A DNA stretch of 64,000 nt from an uncultured Pelagibacteraceae bacterium (GTDB taxonomy: Bacteria; Pseudomonadota; Alphaproteobacteria; Pelagibacterales; Pelagibacteraceae), in assembly GCA_902582165.1 (NCBI GenBank), contig CACHQZ010000001.1, positions 124,001 to 188,000 of the forward strand. Direction: 5' to 3'. Position 1 is the first letter of the stretch. Every line of letters starts with the position of its first letter. Below the pieces are notes generated by a model that saw only the letters and a list, made by a program, of their open reading frames with translations, was not told the DNA's origin and searched no databases. A program made the translations under genes and the position numbers. Positions 48,829 to 64,000 of this stretch are shown piece by piece.

Positions 48829-50040
48829 ATGAAAAAAAAGAAAAAAAAATTAAAAAAAAAACTCACAATTTTAAAAAAACGTAAGTTTAAAAAAGTTGGA
48901 AATAAATTAAAACGGACTTTAAAAAAAAGGATTAAAAATAAAAAAAGAATAGTTTTTAAGAAAAGAAAAAAAATAAAAAGAAAAAAACAAAAAACTAAAC
49001 TCAAATTTAAAACAAAAAAGAAAATTCAAAAAACAAGAGTAATTGTATCAAGAATTTTAATTTTAAGTGATAAACTTAAAGCAATTCTCAATTTCGATTT
49101 TAATCTAGATAGATCTCTACAGAAATTTTTTCTAGGTATATCTAATCGTATTTCAAATTTTAAAAAAGTTATTGAAGAGGAGAGAGCTAAACAAAGAAAA
49201 ATTAAAATACAGGCAATGAAAAGAGAGAAAATAGAAGCTCAAAAACGTTTTAAACAAAAAGAAGATCTTGCAATAAAAGCTAAAGCAATTGAGCTTAAGG
49301 AAGAGGAAAAGATAGGCCGTGAAAGAAAAATAGAATTACAAAAATTTATTAGATTAGAGCAAGCAGAATTAAGAAAAGAACAAGCAGAGAAACAAAGAAA
49401 ATTTTTAGAACAAATAAAATTAGAAAGGAAAATTGAGCAATTTAGAAAAAGAGAAGCCCTAGAAATTAAAAATTTAGAGAAATACGTACTGAGTCAACAA
49501 AGAGAGTCATACGAGCAAGTTCAACAGCGAATAGATAAAATTAAGGAAAAATACAAGTCTTTAAGAGAACAAAAAGTTAATGAAGCAATAAGAGAAAGGG
49601 TCGCTCAGCTTGGAATAAATATTGAAGAATCTGATGATAAATCAACTCTATTAGAAAAAGAGAGAGTTTATAATGAAGAACGTGAAAAAATTGAGTATGC
49701 TCTAGAAAGTTTCTATAGGTCAGCCCATAGCTTATGTTTCCAAATTAATAAAAGATATATTCCAAAATATTTAAGCATCATGAGAGTAGTTGATCGTAGG
49801 TTTGAAACTGGTGAAATATTTATAAAATGGGACGATACCAATGAGGATGATTGGTTAATTTTAATTTATATTAAGAATAATTCACCGGATGAAGGAATAG
49901 TAATTGAAGATAGATCAAATCCAGAAAAAAATCTCTCATATGAATTTAAATCGACTGAAATATTCAAAGCTTCGGATCTTATGGTTGACTCACTAACAAA
50001 ATTGCTCGATAGAGAAAGAAATAAAAAAAAAGTTAGTTGA
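48829..50040 (+). CDS. Lysine-rich N-terminus plus coiled-coil protein of unknown function
   Basis: I do not recognise this gene. The first 70 residues hold 36 Lys and 7 Arg and no acidic residue, a composition like a histone tail or nucleic-acid/polyanion binder. A short hydrophobic-amphipathic section (71-110) follows, then a long charged coiled coil (about 112-275) rich in Glu, Lys, Gln and Arg. The last 110 residues are of normal composition (YALESFYRSAHSLCFQINKRY, RFETGEIFIKWDDTNEDDWLILIYI) and look like a folded alpha/beta domain. No signal peptide or TM. It sits 26 bp after cfa; its 3' end overlaps the MBL gene by 8 bp. Confidence 0.8.
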   Translation: MKKKKKKLKKKLTILKKRKFKKVGNKLKRTLKKRIKNKKRIVFKKRKKIKRKKQKTKLKFKTKKKIQKTRVIVSRILILSDKLKAILNFDFNLDRSLQKFFLGISNRISNFKKVIEEERAKQRKIKIQAMKREKIEAQKRFKQKEDLAIKAKAIELKEEEKIGRERKIELQKFIRLEQAELRKEQAEKQRKFLEQIKLERKIEQFRKREALEIKNLEKYVLSQQRESYEQVQQRIDKIKEKYKSLREQKVNEAIRERVAQLGINIEESDDKSTLLEKERVYNEEREKIEYALESFYRSAHSLCFQINKRYIPKYLSIMRVVDRRFETGEIFIKWDDTNEDDWLILIYIKNNSPDEGIVIEDRSNPEKNLSYEFKSTEIFKASDLMVDSLTKLLDRERNKKKVS

Positions 50041-51357: not shown

Positions 51358-51465
51358 GATTAAAATTTAAAGTTAGAGTCTGTACTTTGCTTGGCATAAT
51401 TTGGACAAAAAAAAGAAATTGAAACTTTATTGAATAAGATAAAATTTAGCCTTATGATTGAAATT

Positions 51466-51858
51466 ATGTCTAAAAGCCACATTTACAAATTAAAAGTTTT
51501 TGTTGAAGACGTTGACTTTGGTCGAGTATTTTATTCTAGATATCTTCAGTATATCGAGAGAGCAAGAACGGAGCTAATACACGAAAAATTTGGCCTAACC
51601 TTAACTCAACTTATGAACGAGCACGATATAATGTTTGTCGTTAGAAGCTGTAACATAAAATATCTAAAATCTGCAGTTTTTGAGGATAATTTAATTGTTG
51701 AAACAAACGTTTTAAAAAAAACCAACGTTAGACTAAACTTGCTTCAAAAGGTTAAAAGAGGTGGGGAGGTTCTTGTAACCGCAGAAGTAGAACTAGCAGT
51801 GGTAGATCGAAGTGGGTCAATAAAAAAACTTTCAAAAGATTTTTTTGCAAAGATTTAA
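51466..51858 (+). CDS. ybgC: YbgC-family acyl-CoA thioesterase
   Basis: Hotdog-fold thioesterase, 130 residues from ATG 51466. The family start is KVFVEDVDFGRVFYSRYLQYIERARTELI, with the catalytic Asp in EDVDFG, but the usual Gly-Val-Val-Tyr-Tyr is Arg-Val-Phe-Tyr-Ser here. Alternative starts are ATG 51454 and TTG 51430; none has a strong ribosome-binding site. In many proteobacteria ybgC begins the tol-pal operon, but no tol genes follow here. Confidence 0.85.
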   Translation: MSKSHIYKLKVFVEDVDFGRVFYSRYLQYIERARTELIHEKFGLTLTQLMNEHDIMFVVRSCNIKYLKSAVFEDNLIVETNVLKKTNVRLNLLQKVKRGGEVLVTAEVELAVVDRSGSIKKLSKDFFAKI

Positions 51859-51947
51859 ATTTGGCTAAGAAACGCCTAATATCTGCCTAAATTTTTGCTA
51901 TAAACTATATTCAACTCAAGTTTGCAAATTCAGCAATACTCATAGAG

Positions 51948-51990
51948 TTAAAAATAAATTAAAAGGAATTTAAAAATAAATTAAAAGGAA
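51948..51990 (+). repeat. 22-bp tandem duplication carrying a Shine-Dalgarno
   Basis: The 21-base unit TTAAAAATAAATTAAAAGGAA occurs twice in tandem with one T between (51948-51968 and 51970-51990). Each copy ends in AAAAGGAA, a Shine-Dalgarno-like core. The second copy is correctly placed for the ATG at 51993. The rest of the 333-bp gap between ybgC and purE holds a 40-codon gene, its terminator, and about 90 bp of AT-rich sequence in which I see no clear promoter. Confidence 0.8.
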
Positions 51991-51992
51991 TC

Positions 51993-52115
51993 ATGAAAAT
52001 TAAATATTTAAAAAAAAACAAGTTAAAAACTAACTTCAATAAAAGATTAAAAAAAATCTCTCTTTTTGAACTTCAAAATAGTCCAAAATTTCTAAATTTT
52101 AAAGTTCGAGCTTAA
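51993..52115 (+). CDS. Small basic protein, 40 residues
   Basis: Short reading frame with strong context: AAAAGGAA 2 bp before the ATG and a hairpin terminator 19 bp after the TAA. The peptide starts MKIKYLKKNKLKTNFNKRL and ends with NSPKFLNFKVRA; 12 of 40 residues are Lys or Arg, with one acidic residue, so it is strongly basic. The C-terminal half (ISLFELQNSPKFLNF) is amphipathic. I do not recognise it. The unit could also be a small RNA with a coincidental frame. Function unknown. Confidence 0.5.
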   Translation: MKIKYLKKNKLKTNFNKRLKKISLFELQNSPKFLNFKVRA

Positions 52116-52134
52116 TCTTTCCTCCTAAATAAAT

Positions 52135-52166
52135 CAGTGGCTTAATTCAATTAGGCCATTGTTTTT
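52135..52166 (+). terminator. Intrinsic terminator of the 40-codon gene
   Basis: CAGTGGCTTA (52135-52144) pairs with TAGGCCATTG (52152-52161) through eight Watson-Crick pairs and two G-T wobbles, closing a 7-nt loop, and is followed directly by TTTTT (52162-52166). This is the clearest rho-independent terminator in the window. It lies between the 40-codon gene and purE. Confidence 0.8.
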
Positions 52167-52191
52167 ATATCAATAATTGTTAAACTAATTT

Positions 52192-52677
52192 GTGAAACGT
52201 ATTAAAGTGAATAATAAAGTGGCAATTATTATGGGATCTCAATCGGATCATTCCATAATGAAAGAGTGTGCAAAAATTTTAAAGACTCTCAAAATTAAAT
52301 ATCAGATTTCTATAGTAAGTGCGCACAGAACACCAAAAAGAATGTTTGAATTTGCAGAGTCAGCCTCAAAAAATGGTTTTGGTGTTATTGTGGCTGGAGC
52401 TGGGGGTTCAGCACATTTGCCTGGTATGGTGGCATCTTTATCTTCCTTACCGGTAATAGGAGTCCCGATAGAAACAAAAAAACTTAAGGGTTTAGATAGT
52501 TTGTTATCAATAGTACAAATGCCACGTGGCTGTCCTGTAGCCACAATGGCAATTAATGGATCTATGAATGCAGGGTTACTTGCAGCTTCAATTATTGGAA
52601 ATTTTGATGAAAAAATTAAATCAAATTTAGAAAAGTGGAAACGTTTACAAACCAAATCCATTAAAAAAAAACCATAA
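52192..52677 (+). CDS. purE: N5-carboxyaminoimidazole ribonucleotide mutase
   Basis: Class I PurE, converting N5-CAIR to CAIR in purine synthesis. Conserved elements are MGSQSDHSIM, the SAHRTPKRM loop with the catalytic His, GAGGSAHLPGM and MPRGCPVATMAI. Length 161. It starts with GTG. The purK gene 4 bp downstream supplies its substrate, confirming the bacterial two-step route rather than class II PurE. Confidence 0.97.
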   Translation: MKRIKVNNKVAIIMGSQSDHSIMKECAKILKTLKIKYQISIVSAHRTPKRMFEFAESASKNGFGVIVAGAGGSAHLPGMVASLSSLPVIGVPIETKKLKGLDSLLSIVQMPRGCPVATMAINGSMNAGLLAASIIGNFDEKIKSNLEKWKRLQTKSIKKKP

Positions 52678-54535: not shown

Positions 54536-55162
54536 TTAGTTCAAAGGTTTAATTAAAGCAGGATCATTATTTACTGGATTATTAACATCTTTTGATATCT
54601 CATGAAACTTTAAATTAGGCGGTTTAATAGAGTTTAATATTTCCATAGCATCTTTTTTAATGTTTAAATAATTATTAATCTGGCTTTGATTAATAATCAT
54701 TGGCTCTCTGTGATGAATGGTGCTAATTTTTTCAGTAGCTTCTCTTGTAATTATACAAAACTGGTCATTCTGATATATGCCGGCAAAATACATTAATTCA
54801 TCATCTTCTTTTGAAAAATAATAGGGAGTTTTTGTTTTATCTTCCCTTTTCCACTCATAATACCCATCAGCTGGAATAATACATCTTGATGTCTGGATAA
54901 GATTCTTAAAAGTAATCTTTTCCATAAGGGTTTCTCTTCTTGCATTGATAAGAGGAGAAAATTTGTCTAATTTTTTAGACCAACTCGGTACTAACCCCCA
55001 CTCATAAAGCTCAAGAGCCTTACCATTTGAATAGGATTTTATTACAGGTAACTTTTGAGTTGGGTGTGCATTATAATTATCTGTGTCTTCAACCTTTATA
55101 TTTGTTTTTACCAAATCAATAGTTTTAGTTACTGGTTTTCGAATACTATATCTTCCACACAT
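54536..55162 (-). CDS. yedK: SRAP-domain abasic-site protein (YedK/HMCES)
   Basis: Forms a stable thiazolidine crosslink with abasic sites in single-stranded DNA, protecting replication forks. Mature N-terminal Cys2 is in MCGRYS; the other catalytic residues are Asn73 (INARRETL), Glu103 (GYYEWK) and His150 (IHHREP, normally HxRMP). Length 208. The start codon shares one base with the stop of a 36-codon upstream gene (TAATG), so it is translationally coupled. Confidence 0.93.
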   Translation of the reverse strand: MCGRYSIRKPVTKTIDLVKTNIKVEDTDNYNAHPTQKLPVIKSYSNGKALELYEWGLVPSWSKKLDKFSPLINARRETLMEKITFKNLIQTSRCIIPADGYYEWKREDKTKTPYYFSKEDDELMYFAGIYQNDQFCIITREATEKISTIHHREPMIINQSQINNYLNIKKDAMEILNSIKPPNLKFHEISKDVNNPVNNDPALIKPLN

Positions 55163-55272
55163 TATTTATTTTTTCTCTCTCTTTTAAGCTTTCTCTTTTC
55201 TTTTAAAGATAACTTTGCTTTTTTCATAAAGCTTCTATCTTTTTGACTTTTACCCGAATATCTTTTTGACAT
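55162..55272 (-). CDS. Small basic 36-residue protein coupled to SRAP gene
   Basis: The ATG lies 2 bp after the stop of the FAH-family gene, and its TAA overlaps the SRAP ATG (TAATG). This exact packing between two clear genes strongly suggests a translated frame. The peptide begins MSKRYSGKSQKDRSFMKKAK and continues as a Lys/Arg/Glu-rich helix (SLKEKRKLKRERKNK), with no hydrophobic segment; 17 of 36 residues are Lys or Arg. I do not recognise it. A role in nucleic-acid binding beside an abasic-site protein is possible but speculative. Confidence 0.6.
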   Translation of the reverse strand: MSKRYSGKSQKDRSFMKKAKLSLKEKRKLKRERKNK

Positions 55273-59777: not shown

Positions 59778-60806
59778 ATGGATTCGTTAATCATAATTTT
59801 AGTAACTTTATTAGTCATTATTAATCTCGGAGTTATTTTCTTTTTAGTAAGAAATAAGCCTGAAAAACAAATAAATCCAGAACAGGCTTTTAAAGATGAG
59901 TTTAACTCATTTAAAGAAACCTTCGGTCAATCCTTTGGTTCTATGAGCAAAGAAATTGCTAAAGATATGACTGGTGCTTTAACTAAAGTTGATGAAAAAG
60001 TTTCAGTTTTTAACCAACAAGTAAGTGAGCTTAATAAAAGCCAAGATAATTTTAGTAGAATTTTAAGCGGTGTTAAAACATATGGAACACTCGCAGAATT
60101 TGGATTAGGTGCCCTCCTTAAAGATTTACTACCAGCATCTCAATTTATTGCTAATGCAAAAATGAAAGATGATACGTCCGAGACAGTTGAATTCGCTATT
60201 AAGCTTCAAGATGTTTTATTACCTATCGACAGTCATTGGCCAATTGAGAAATATAAAGCAATTGATGACGCGTACAATGCTAATAATAAAGAGGCACAAG
60301 TTGAGGCAAGAAAAGACTTAGCTGCAGCGTTTAGATTAAAAGCTAAAACAGTAAATTCAAAATATATAGCTCCACCTAAAAGCACAGATTTTGCAATAGT
60401 TTATGTTCCAACAGAGGGATTGTTCTCAGAACTTTCAAGTTATAGAGACCCAAAGACAAAAGAATTATTATTACAAGAACTTAGAACAAAATATAAAGTT
60501 ACAATTTCTGGTCCAAATACTTTATCTGCCTTGTTGCAATCTTATCATTTAGGATTTCAAACCCTAAAAGTGCAACAACATGCAACTCAAATCTATAGTG
60601 ACTTAAGAAACATAAGCTCTAGGTTTGAAAAACATTTTGATGGCATTAAAGATCTAAGAAAGAAATTAGAGCAAGCCATGGCTGCTACTGATGGATTTGG
60701 TAGGGACGCTAGATCTATAATGAATACTCTTGGGAATATAAAAGATCCAGAGCAAGTAACAGACTCCCTGAAAGAAAATCCAGAAAAGATAAAAGTTCTT
60801 AAGTAA
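59778..60806 (+). CDS. rmuC: DNA recombination protein RmuC
   Basis: RmuC limits inversions at short inverted repeats and has a PD-(D/E)XK nuclease-like core. An N-terminal TM (LIIILVTLLVIINLGVIFFL) anchors it, a coiled-coil region follows (about 30-85), and the core shows GTLAEFGLGALLKDLLP, VEFAIKLQDVLLPIDSHWPIE and DFAIVYVPTEGLFSEL with LSALLQSYHLGFQTL. Length 342, shorter than E. coli RmuC because the coiled coil is shorter. It lies in a run with sbcB, 9 bp upstream of it. Confidence 0.93.
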   Translation: MDSLIIILVTLLVIINLGVIFFLVRNKPEKQINPEQAFKDEFNSFKETFGQSFGSMSKEIAKDMTGALTKVDEKVSVFNQQVSELNKSQDNFSRILSGVKTYGTLAEFGLGALLKDLLPASQFIANAKMKDDTSETVEFAIKLQDVLLPIDSHWPIEKYKAIDDAYNANNKEAQVEARKDLAAAFRLKAKTVNSKYIAPPKSTDFAIVYVPTEGLFSELSSYRDPKTKELLLQELRTKYKVTISGPNTLSALLQSYHLGFQTLKVQQHATQIYSDLRNISSRFEKHFDGIKDLRKKLEQAMAATDGFGRDARSIMNTLGNIKDPEQVTDSLKENPEKIKVLK

Positions 60807-60815
60807 ACATAAATT

Positions 60816-62237
60816 ATGTCTAACTTTGTCTTTTATGATTTTGAGACCAGTTCATCTAATAAATATTGGGGCCAAATAATTCAAATTGGTGCCGTATTAA
60901 CTAATGACAATTTAGATGAACTAGATCGTTTTGATGCTAGATGTAGATTAAGTCCTGGAATAATTCCAGAAGCCATGGCGCTAATCGTGAACAAGACCTC
61001 ACCCTCAATGCTGAAAAAGTCAAATCTCTCTCATTATGAAATGATTAGGCAATTTGTTGAAACACTTAAAAGATGGGGAAAAGCCACTTATATAGGGTTT
61101 AATAGTATTGAGTTTGATGAGGAGTTTTTAAGGTGCACTTTGTTTCAAACATTAGAATATCCATACATCACAAGCACTAATGGAAATACTAGAGGAGACA
61201 TCTTAAGCTTAGCAAGAGCTGCAAATCTCTATTATCCAAATACACTTAAAAATTCTGTTAACGAAAAAGGAAATGATGTTTACAAATTAGATCAAATGGC
61301 TCCTCTTAATGGGATTGAACACGGTAATGCTCACAGCGCAATAGGTGATGTGATGGCTACGATTGGAATAGCAAAATTAATTTCTAAAAAAGCCCCAAAT
61401 GTTTGGAAAGCAAGCATGTTAACTATGGATAAAAATCAATCTTTAGAGATAATAAAAAAAGAATTACTTTTTTGTACGAATGAATATTTTTACGGGAGAA
61501 GTAGACCGTATGTTCAAACATTTATTTGTCAGCATCCTCAATATCAGTGGCCATTATGTTTTGATTTAAGACATGATCCTTCACCATATTTAGAAATGCC
61601 AATTAAAGAATTAACTTCAGCAATGAAAAAACAACCTAAATTCATTAGAACTGTTAGACACAATAAACATCCAGTTATCATGAATCCATCTTATGGAAAT
61701 CAATTTGATGAGTACAAACTTATCGGAACAAAAAAATTAGAGCAAAGAGCTAAAATGATAAAAAACAACGAAGCTTTTGCGGAAAAAGTTTCTTCGGTAA
61801 AACGATCTGAAATAGATGAAAAAGAACAAACAAAGTCACAAGAAGATTTATATAATGAAGAAAGTATTTACGCCAAATTTACCTCAACAGAAGATAATAA
61901 AATAATGCCAGAGTTTCATAGTGTTGACTGGAGTAAAAAACTTCAAGTTATTTCTAAATTTAAAGATGAGAGATTACAGTACTTTGGAAAAAAACTTCTT
62001 TACATGGAGAAACCTGAAATTTTATCTAAATCTGACTTTAATTTAATTCATAAAGATATTTCAAAAAAACTATTAAGCACTAATAATGAAAACTGGAATA
62101 CAATTCCAAGAACTTATTCAGAGATAGATACTTTAAGAGCAAAATTTGAAAAAGAAAACCAACCAGAAAAACTTAAAATATTAGATGATATTAACGCATA
62201 CGTTGAAGATTTAGAAAAATATTATTCATCTGCATAG
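60816..62237 (+). CDS. sbcB: Exodeoxyribonuclease I
   Basis: 3'-5' single-strand DNA exonuclease used in recombination and mismatch repair. The DEDDh active site begins with Asp8 and Glu10 (FVFYDFETSS), continues with GFNSIEFDEEFLR and ends with His and Asp in NAHSAIGDVMAT. The Exo I C-terminal SH3-like and extended helical domains follow (QWPLCFDLRHDPSPYLEM; SFLIHK-type region). Length 473. ExoI is mainly a gammaproteobacterial and patchy alphaproteobacterial enzyme; here it sits just upstream of trxA-folC-accD. Confidence 0.94.
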   Translation: MSNFVFYDFETSSSNKYWGQIIQIGAVLTNDNLDELDRFDARCRLSPGIIPEAMALIVNKTSPSMLKKSNLSHYEMIRQFVETLKRWGKATYIGFNSIEFDEEFLRCTLFQTLEYPYITSTNGNTRGDILSLARAANLYYPNTLKNSVNEKGNDVYKLDQMAPLNGIEHGNAHSAIGDVMATIGIAKLISKKAPNVWKASMLTMDKNQSLEIIKKELLFCTNEYFYGRSRPYVQTFICQHPQYQWPLCFDLRHDPSPYLEMPIKELTSAMKKQPKFIRTVRHNKHPVIMNPSYGNQFDEYKLIGTKKLEQRAKMIKNNEAFAEKVSSVKRSEIDEKEQTKSQEDLYNEESIYAKFTSTEDNKIMPEFHSVDWSKKLQVISKFKDERLQYFGKKLLYMEKPEILSKSDFNLIHKDISKKLLSTNNENWNTIPRTYSEIDTLRAKFEKENQPEKLKILDDINAYVEDLEKYYSSA

Positions 62238-62265
62238 TTGACAAAAAATGAAAAATAATTAATTA
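62238..62265 (+). promoter_or_regulatory. Candidate promoter of trxA
   Basis: TTGACA (62238-62243), a perfect -35 hexamer directly after the sbcB stop, and TAATTA (62260-62265) at 16 nt spacing. The trxA ATG is only 7 nt after the -10, so the main transcript could be leaderless, although AAAGG also lies 2 bp before the ATG. The -10 is weak, so confidence is moderate. Confidence 0.4.
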
Positions 62266-62271
62266 AAGGTT

Positions 62272-62589
62272 ATGGCATTCAAAGATTCTACAGACGAGAA
62301 ATTTAGTGATCAAATAGGTGGTAGCAAACTTTCACTAATTCAATTTTCAGCCTCGTGGTGTGGACCATGTCAACAGCTTAAACCAATAGTAGAGAAAATT
62401 TCAAATGACATGTCAGATAAAATTGATTGTTATTATCACGATATTGAAAGTCAGCCTAATGAGCCAACTAAGTATTCAGTGAGAGGTGTGCCAACAATTC
62501 TTTTATTTAAAGAAGGAAAGCTTTTGGGAACGAAAGTTGGTGCTTCAAGCGAAAAAGATATGCTTGAATTTATTAAACCTCATATTTAA
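62272..62589 (+). CDS. trxA: Thioredoxin
   Basis: Protein disulfide reductase. The active site is WCGPC with Cys30 and Cys33, and the cis-Pro in VRGVPTILLF is conserved, followed by FKEGKLLGTKVGA. Length 105. Thioredoxin donates electrons to MsrA, ribonucleotide reductase and others. Its 3' end overlaps convergent folC by 4 bp. In many alphaproteobacteria trxA sits between addA and folC; here sbcB precedes it and folC is on the opposite strand. Confidence 0.95.
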   Translation: MAFKDSTDEKFSDQIGGSKLSLIQFSASWCGPCQQLKPIVEKISNDMSDKIDCYYHDIESQPNEPTKYSVRGVPTILLFKEGKLLGTKVGASSEKDMLEFIKPHI

Positions 62590-63848
62590 TTTTTATTCAA
62601 AATCTTTCCACAATTATACAGACTACCAAAACAAACAATAAGTTTTTTTTCTTTACTACTTATCTTCTTTAATGCTTGAGCAAAATTATCGCTTTTTTCT
62701 ACTTTGAATTTATTTTTGGCTGCTGCTTTATAAAGTTCATTAACTGAAACTGAGTTTAATTCATTTTCAATAGGCACTGCAACAATCTTTTTAAAGACCC
62801 CTTTAAGCTGTTTAATAAATAAATCTGGTTCTTTATTTTTAGTCATAGCCCAAATTCCATATTTGGGAATTTTTATATTTTTTAAATATGCTGCTAAATT
62901 TCGTGCATCAGTAGTGGCATGTGCGCCATCAATCATGATAATTTCATTTTTGTGCAGCTTATTTTTAATTTTCCCTTTATTCAGGTATTGAAATCGACCT
63001 TCAAAAGAAAGTAAAGGCAAAGTCTTTTGGATAGTTTTCTTATCTATTTTGAGATCAAGTGCTACTTTTATAGCCAAGCAAACATTTTCAAACATTCCTT
63101 TAGAATAAACATTTTTGGTATTAAGTTTTATTTTATATTTTCTATCTTGATAGTAATATTGATTACCCTTTCTAATAAGCCTCCAAGCATTTGGATATAT
63201 AATTTTACTTTTATTATTTTTTAAGAAAATCTTTATTTTTTTTAAAACATTTGGTGACTGTTTACCTACGTATATATTTGTAAAATTACTTAAAAATCCT
63301 ACATCCTCTTTTATAACTTCATTCAAAGTTTTTCTTTTTAAAAAATTTAAATGTTGTTTATTTATATTTGTGCAAATTTGAAGCTTTGGGAAGTCATGGA
63401 CATTGTTAGAATCTAATCTCCAGAAAGCACCTGTTTCTTGAATATTATAATCAGCATTTATTTTTGAAGCATTTATAATGTAAACTAGAGTAAGGCATTC
63501 AAAAATTGTTAAGGGAATATTTAATTTTTCTATCTGTTTTATAGTTTCTTTAATTTCTTTGTGACTCAAGTGCTTATTGCCCATGTAAAATCTTTCTCTT
63601 ATATCTCTAAGTGAGGGTGAAACATGTGTTGTTACCTTTTGATTATTTGCCTCGATAAACGATTTCAAAGAAAATAATGTTGTAAATTTTCCAGACTCAC
63701 CAAGTACTGAAATTACATTTTTAAGTTTTTTTTCTGGATGCTCCAATAAGGCCAAGGCCAATTTAATCCTTTTTAGACCGAAGTTAACAGATTTATTAAA
63801 AAGTTTATGATTAGCTAGCTGATTGTATAGATTGATCGATCTTGACAT
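62586..63848 (-). CDS. folC: Folylpolyglutamate/dihydrofolate synthase
   Basis: Mur-ligase-fold enzyme that adds glutamate to folates and dihydropteroate. It starts with SINLYNQLANHKLFNKSVNFGLKRIKLAL, has an atypical P-loop VLGESGKFTT (from 48; most FolCs have GTNGKGS), SPSLRDIRERFYM and MIDGAHATTDARNLAAYL (usual D-G-A-H-N-P). Length 420. The Asn-Pro replacement and P-loop changes suggest divergence but the Gly-Lys-Thr-like core is kept. Its ATG is 38 bp inside the upstream accD reading frame, so the two are likely coupled. Confidence 0.88.
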   Translation of the reverse strand: MSRSINLYNQLANHKLFNKSVNFGLKRIKLALALLEHPEKKLKNVISVLGESGKFTTLFSLKSFIEANNQKVTTHVSPSLRDIRERFYMGNKHLSHKEIKETIKQIEKLNIPLTIFECLTLVYIINASKINADYNIQETGAFWRLDSNNVHDFPKLQICTNINKQHLNFLKRKTLNEVIKEDVGFLSNFTNIYVGKQSPNVLKKIKIFLKNNKSKIIYPNAWRLIRKGNQYYYQDRKYKIKLNTKNVYSKGMFENVCLAIKVALDLKIDKKTIQKTLPLLSFEGRFQYLNKGKIKNKLHKNEIIMIDGAHATTDARNLAAYLKNIKIPKYGIWAMTKNKEPDLFIKQLKGVFKKIVAVPIENELNSVSVNELYKAAAKNKFKVEKSDNFAQALKKISSKEKKLIVCFGSLYNCGKILNKN

Positions 63849-64000
63849 TAGACTCTTGTTTAGCCTGAGCCTCTGCTTTTTTCAATAGCACATTTAATAA
63901 TGTGCCAACAGTTGAATTCAAATATTGTCTTTCCACAATTAGATCAATTCCTCCATGATCTTTAACGTATTCCGCAGTTTGAAAATCATCAGGTAGAGTT
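63811..64000 (-). CDS. accD: Acetyl-CoA carboxylase carboxyltransferase beta subunit, C-terminal part
   Basis: The end of a gene running in from beyond the window, 62 codons and the stop seen. The peptide TLPDDFQTAEYVKDHGGIDL then IVERQYLNSTVGTLLNVLLK matches the AccD C-terminus (typical LPEGFQRAEFLLEHGMID...). A Lys/Gln/Ser-rich tail of about 20 residues overlaps the start of folC by 38 bp. accD-folC adjacency is common in proteobacteria. AccD supplies malonyl-CoA for fatty-acid synthesis. Confidence 0.9.
   Translation of the reverse strand, partial: TLPDDFQTAEYVKDHGGIDLIVERQYLNSTVGTLLNVLLKKAEAQAKQESNVKIDQSIQSAS

Follow-up and report, generated by a model that had tools for sequence, protein, structure and literature searches.

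Small basic proteins of the bL34, bL36 and Sra class are ribosomal or ribosome-associated. The protein described here resembles them in length and in its strong positive charge, but it differs in having no Pfam, NCBIfam or PDB similarity, in being confined to one genus, and in being dispensable. In the CIN1 locus of Rhodobacter sphaeroides, an alphaproteobacterial small-protein gene encodes CcaF1 (DUF1127), which binds RNA, and its transcript runs into a 3' RNA part, the CcsR sRNAs, with a Rho-independent terminator (PMC10253847). Read from its sequence, our locus has a comparable anatomy of small-protein gene, conserved 3' UTR and predicted terminator. CcaF1 has 71 aa and is accompanied by four sRNAs, whereas our small open reading frame (smORF) encodes 40 aa and is followed by one short motif. 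Because DUF1127 (PF06568) had no match in the protein or its family members, and none was found in the genome, the smORF is at most an analogue of the CcaF1-CcsR system.

The locus lies in a 64,000-nt stretch (hereafter, the window) of the AT-rich genome of a SAR11 bacterium (Pelagibacteraceae). Its features, in window coordinates, are as follows.

51430..51858, + strand: ybgC-like acyl-CoA thioesterase gene, recognized by a 4HBT Pfam match and synteny; upstream neighbour in 47 of 47 main genomes
51912..51940, + strand: conserved 5' intergenic element CAACTCAAGTTTGCAAATTCAGCAATACT of low divergence; candidate promoter or 5'-UTR element
51948..51969, + strand: first copy of the 22-bp tandem duplication, with an AAAAGG too distant from the start codon
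51970..51991, + strand: second copy, with the usable Shine-Dalgarno core; one AAGG core here in most relatives
51993..52115, + strand: gene for the 40-aa small protein MKIKYLKKNKLKTNFNKRLKKISLFELQNSPKFLNFKVRA, with its stop codon; carried by 47 of the 91 same-genus genomes, pN/pS 0.19
52116..52125, + strand: C/U-rich 3'-UTR motif TCTTTCCTCC, with a CCTCC that also occurs at the 16S 3' end
52135..52166, + strand: intrinsic terminator CAGTGGCTTAATTCAATTAGGCCATTG-TTTTT; stem kept in 31 sequences, with 99.2% of its cells paired
52159..52186, + strand: putative purE promoter TTGTTT-N16-TAAACT, directly before GTG 52192; same layout in genomes that lack ybgC, the smORF or the terminator

The 333-bp gap between ybgC (end, 51858) and purE (GTG, 52192) is the largest of the 67 in the window (median 8), as counted between ORFs of at least 60 aa. 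The original prediction placed a self-contained unit in this rare gap; the rarity held, but self-containment did so only in part, in that the smORF is tied to ybgC in 47/47 genomes and, within 52157-52192, the terminator T-tract overlaps the putative purE -35 (TTGTTT). The ybgC-like gene, single-copy wherever found, matches the 4HBT Pfam family above its cut-off; its top NCBIfam match, TIGR02799, is nonetheless under the cut-off of that model (106 vs 141 bits).

A protein search of 150 genomes (E < 1e-4) located the smORF in 47 of the 91 same-genus SAR11 genomes, including HIMB058 and many uncultured Pelagibacteraceae genomes, and all 47 carriers have it directly between ybgC and purE. Two further genomes possess a divergent form, whose C-terminus reads FQLQN....WGNWV. 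These are G024, in which it lies 3' of ybgC and a second copy adjoins a photolyase-like gene, and G072, in which ybgC is not beside it. The second divergent copy in the former genome (MKRTIKFRKEKKIRVRTRRFKKLSLFQLQNRADSNCWGNWVARAC; L050, G024:C82, 1487-1626) has similar upstream sequence, TTGCAAAACTAGCATTAC. One clade has ybgC without the smORF (e.g. G001, G016, G070), and the small protein is thus dispensable. Neither ybgC nor the smORF was detected in G005, G009, G014, G015, G025, G028, G042, G050 and G054, where purE adjoins hydrolase/lipoprotein genes. Beyond the genus, an order-wide search gave only weak matches, none convincing; those inspected were located within or across other genes, with a group at E~5e-4 inside 641-codon frames. 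A class-wide search with three divergent forms, a query without a positive control outside the genus, was empty, and the viral contigs searched contained no smORF match.

ORFs of ~40 aa are numerous in the AT-rich DNA of the window, so that the length of this one is uninformative by itself; it is conservation that identifies it as a real gene. The original prediction had proposed codon-level substitution patterns as a check, and in the first of two sequence groups these proved clearly codon-aware. Within group 1 (n=28 sequences), pN/pS was 0.19 for the whole frame and only 0.09 over its C-terminal half, compared with 0.80 and 1.10 in the shifted frames, and none of 300 column permutations gave a value as low as 0.19. 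Changes tracked codon positions in frame 0 only, with a third-position heterozygosity of 0.150 versus 0.072 and 0.045. The codon signal was weaker in group 2 taken alone (n=16 sequences; pN/pS 0.51, with 24/300 permutations as low) and was confined there to the second half of the smORF (pN/pS 0.21). Indels inside the smORF comprise whole codons, while the spacer just 5' of it shows indels of 1 nt and 22 nt; a candidate in-frame extension 5' of the ATG, which some relatives keep open, was rejected because the window has a stop there and these spacer indels break the frame. Most relatives retain the start codon and a core resembling a Shine-Dalgarno sequence. The C-terminal motif K[KR][IV]S[LI]FELQNS[PA]K of the encoded proteins is almost invariant. 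Among 21 of these proteins, divergent ones included, six residues show no variation and nine show almost none.

Together, these comparisons indicate that the smORF at 51993-52115 is a genuine gene, under selection and specific to one SAR11 genus-level lineage, and they lend strong support to the earlier proposal that this 40-codon basic frame encodes a small protein. The gene itself, the selection upon it, its fixed place and its conserved terminator are directly supported by the data. We hold it very probable that the smORF is a real lineage-specific small-protein gene belonging to its unit, a level of confidence that does not extend to what the protein binds. It probably comes last in a ybgC-smORF unit with a shared transcript, would be translated from the nearer Shine-Dalgarno sequence, and would be separated from purEK by the conserved intrinsic terminator that closes the unit; purEK would start from a separate promoter overlapping the T-tract of that terminator. 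Upstream of the smORF, 15-nt windows in the 5' element CAACTCAAGTTTGCAAATTCAGCAATACT differ by 0.03-0.07 in group 1, compared with 0.20 at ybgC fourfold sites (TCAAGTTTGCAAATT: mean pairwise difference 0.03), and the core of the element (51912-51940) is unique in the genome at ≤3 mismatches. A sigma-70 scan of the smORF region revealed no excess of promoter-like sites over shuffles.

The 22-bp unit TTAAAAATAAATTAAAAGGAAT occurs as two perfect copies (51948-51969 and 51970-51991) and no other tandem repeat in the window scores as high (88; runner-up, 63). The two ribosome-binding cores initially reported are real, and the second is placed as claimed: its AAAAGG ends four bases 5' of ATG 51993, which is close but usable, while that of the first copy, 26 bases from the ATG, is too far. 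As a feature of the gene, the duplicated Shine-Dalgarno did not survive the count of repeats in relatives: a second copy is present in 0/46, most of which have a single AAGG core at an equal distance before the ATG. Being absent from 46/46 relatives, the duplication is not a functional hallmark of the smORF. Recent slippage in AT-rich DNA explains it best, any effect on expression being local at most, although it may be an assembly or amplification artefact; the doubled Shine-Dalgarno thus appears incidental and private to one genome. In sum, the observation behind the original prediction was confirmed, and its interpretation was partly supported.

Members of the smORF family are lysine-rich proteins of 38-45 aa. 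The protein of the window has 40 aa, a net charge of about +12, 13 basic residues and one acidic residue, and searches of Pfam, NCBIfam, PHROGs and PDB returned nothing above noise. AlphaFold predicts helices at residues 3-18, 24-28 and 31-39 (mean pLDDT 73, pTM 0.33). Charge and composition make binding to nucleic acid, notably RNA, or to the ribosome the likeliest role, though a tentative one; the basic helical N-terminal arm and the conserved SLFELQNSPK motif would then form the contact surface. Elsewhere in the window, the minus strand at 55162-55272 contains a further short basic ORF of 36 aa, MSKRYSGKSQKDRSFMKKAKLSLKEKRKLKRERKNK, a candidate small protein, and the predicted 403-aa protein at 48829-50040 has an extremely lysine-rich N-terminus.

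The terminator (52135-52161, followed by TTTTTATATC) has a 12-pair stem with 4 G-C pairs and a loop of 3, and its stem is kept across relatives. Originally described as the best intrinsic terminator in the window, it does join the longest stem to a genuine T-run among the parts scanned (positions 60001-64000 lay outside the scan). In group 1, pairs of sequences differ on average by 0.005 over the 15-nt window TAATCTTTCCTCCTA, which contains the 3'-UTR motif UCUUUCCUCC, as opposed to 0.20 at ybgC fourfold sites. The motif has CCTCC in common with the 16S 3' end, CCTCCTTTCT. In both groups, no stretch of 10 codons in ybgC has third positions as conserved as those of the last 10 smORF codons (0/120 each).

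These features would fit a dual-function transcript that specifies both the peptide and a regulatory 3' RNA, either released or acting in place, consisting of the ORF end, UCUUUCCUCC and the terminator hairpin, with the C/U-rich stretch pairing with purine-rich ribosome-binding sites of its own or other mRNAs. The structural data are in part consistent with such a transcript. A hairpin over the last smORF codons, with 99.4% of its cells paired, shows one compensatory pair, folding of the 3' region surpasses that of shuffled sequences (mean z -4.45 with the terminator counted in), and the predicted minimum-energy fold of the window transcript joins the motif to both copies of the ribosome-binding site. 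However, this pairing with its own site lacks covariation (86.5% paired vs 86.3% in shuffles), and the hairpin overlaps protein-constrained codons, looks broken in L048/L049, and may owe its compensatory change to one event only. In group 2 the motif has drifted (15-nt window difference, 0.133), and it is missing from the divergent forms L178 and L052. Further arguing against such regulation, sites resembling a Shine-Dalgarno sequence precede only 8/68 ORFs (naive starts), and no Hfq turned up in the genome, which is 85% complete. Rfam 15, searched at a relaxed threshold, yielded a sole match, sub-threshold and inside purE. We consider the dual-function transcript unlikely on balance. A compact form of it, suited to a streamlined genome, in which a basic RNA-binding peptide is combined with a 3' anti-Shine-Dalgarno mimic (UCUUUCCUCC) that restrains those mRNAs, a minority, whose ribosome-binding sites are strong, beginning with its own, strikes us as quite doubtful. 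An additional RNA role for the 3' end is possible, given how little the 3'-UTR motif varies within the close group. Of the earlier suggestion of a dual-function RNA, then, what stands is a 3' UTR and ORF end constrained beyond the protein's needs; covariation with the ribosome-binding site, an Rfam match and Hfq were not found.

A reading that we regard as very unlikely makes the smORF a leader peptide or attenuator for purEK, in which its translation would decide whether the terminator forms before purE. As in known attenuator leader peptides, a short ORF, an intrinsic terminator and a biosynthetic operon follow in series on the same strand. However, purE retains a promoter-like sequence of its own: a block (ATTGTTTTTAT...TTAAATT...TGTGAA) is similar in 24 upstream regions, including those of genomes without ybgC, smORF and terminator, and its persistence there, a comparative test only, makes a leader-peptide role for the smORF unlikely. 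Unlike such leader peptides, moreover, the smORF protein is conserved in sequence, its C-terminal amino acids above all (pN/pS 0.09), with no run of regulatory codons, and its lysine richness is unconnected to purine synthesis. With its GTG start just past the -10, purE looks leaderless or nearly so; in L018 (G036; 1700-2183) it is apparently frameshifted, as judged from two overlapping partial matches. Alleles of ybgC and the smORF co-vary, and those of purE do not follow, as expected from close linkage with recombination nearby. In L007, L009, L011 and L012, the alleles of ybgC and the smORF share 85-94% identity with the window but purE only 66-72%, an allele boundary between smORF and purE that probably arose by recombination.

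It is highly improbable that the frame is merely open by chance within a conserved noncoding RNA or a stretch of regulatory DNA, and not the real small-protein gene preferred here: its flanks are likewise conserved and ORFs of 40 aa are frequent by chance in this DNA, but the codon pattern restricted to frame 0 in group 1, as low in none of the permutations, and length changes in whole codons largely refute the idea. A type I toxin with a minus-strand antisense RNA, suggested by the gene's small peptide, by its structured transcript and by GGAGGAAAG (minus strand, 52117-52125), which reads as a ribosome-binding site, is no less improbable, given a strongly charged protein without a membrane-spanning stretch and long-term purifying selection at one fixed locus, unlike most such modules. 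A minus-strand gene read from GGAGGAAAG was also rejected: in relatives the frame that follows spans no more than 4-8 codons, and in this genome it lacks an ATG.

Few free-living cells have genomes as reduced as those of SAR11. Intergenic space as long as this is rare, and here it is occupied by a lineage-restricted small protein under strong selection and by a constrained RNA tail. The smORF is a clear gene that is missing from family libraries, and it offers a concrete target for the study of small basic protein function in SAR11.
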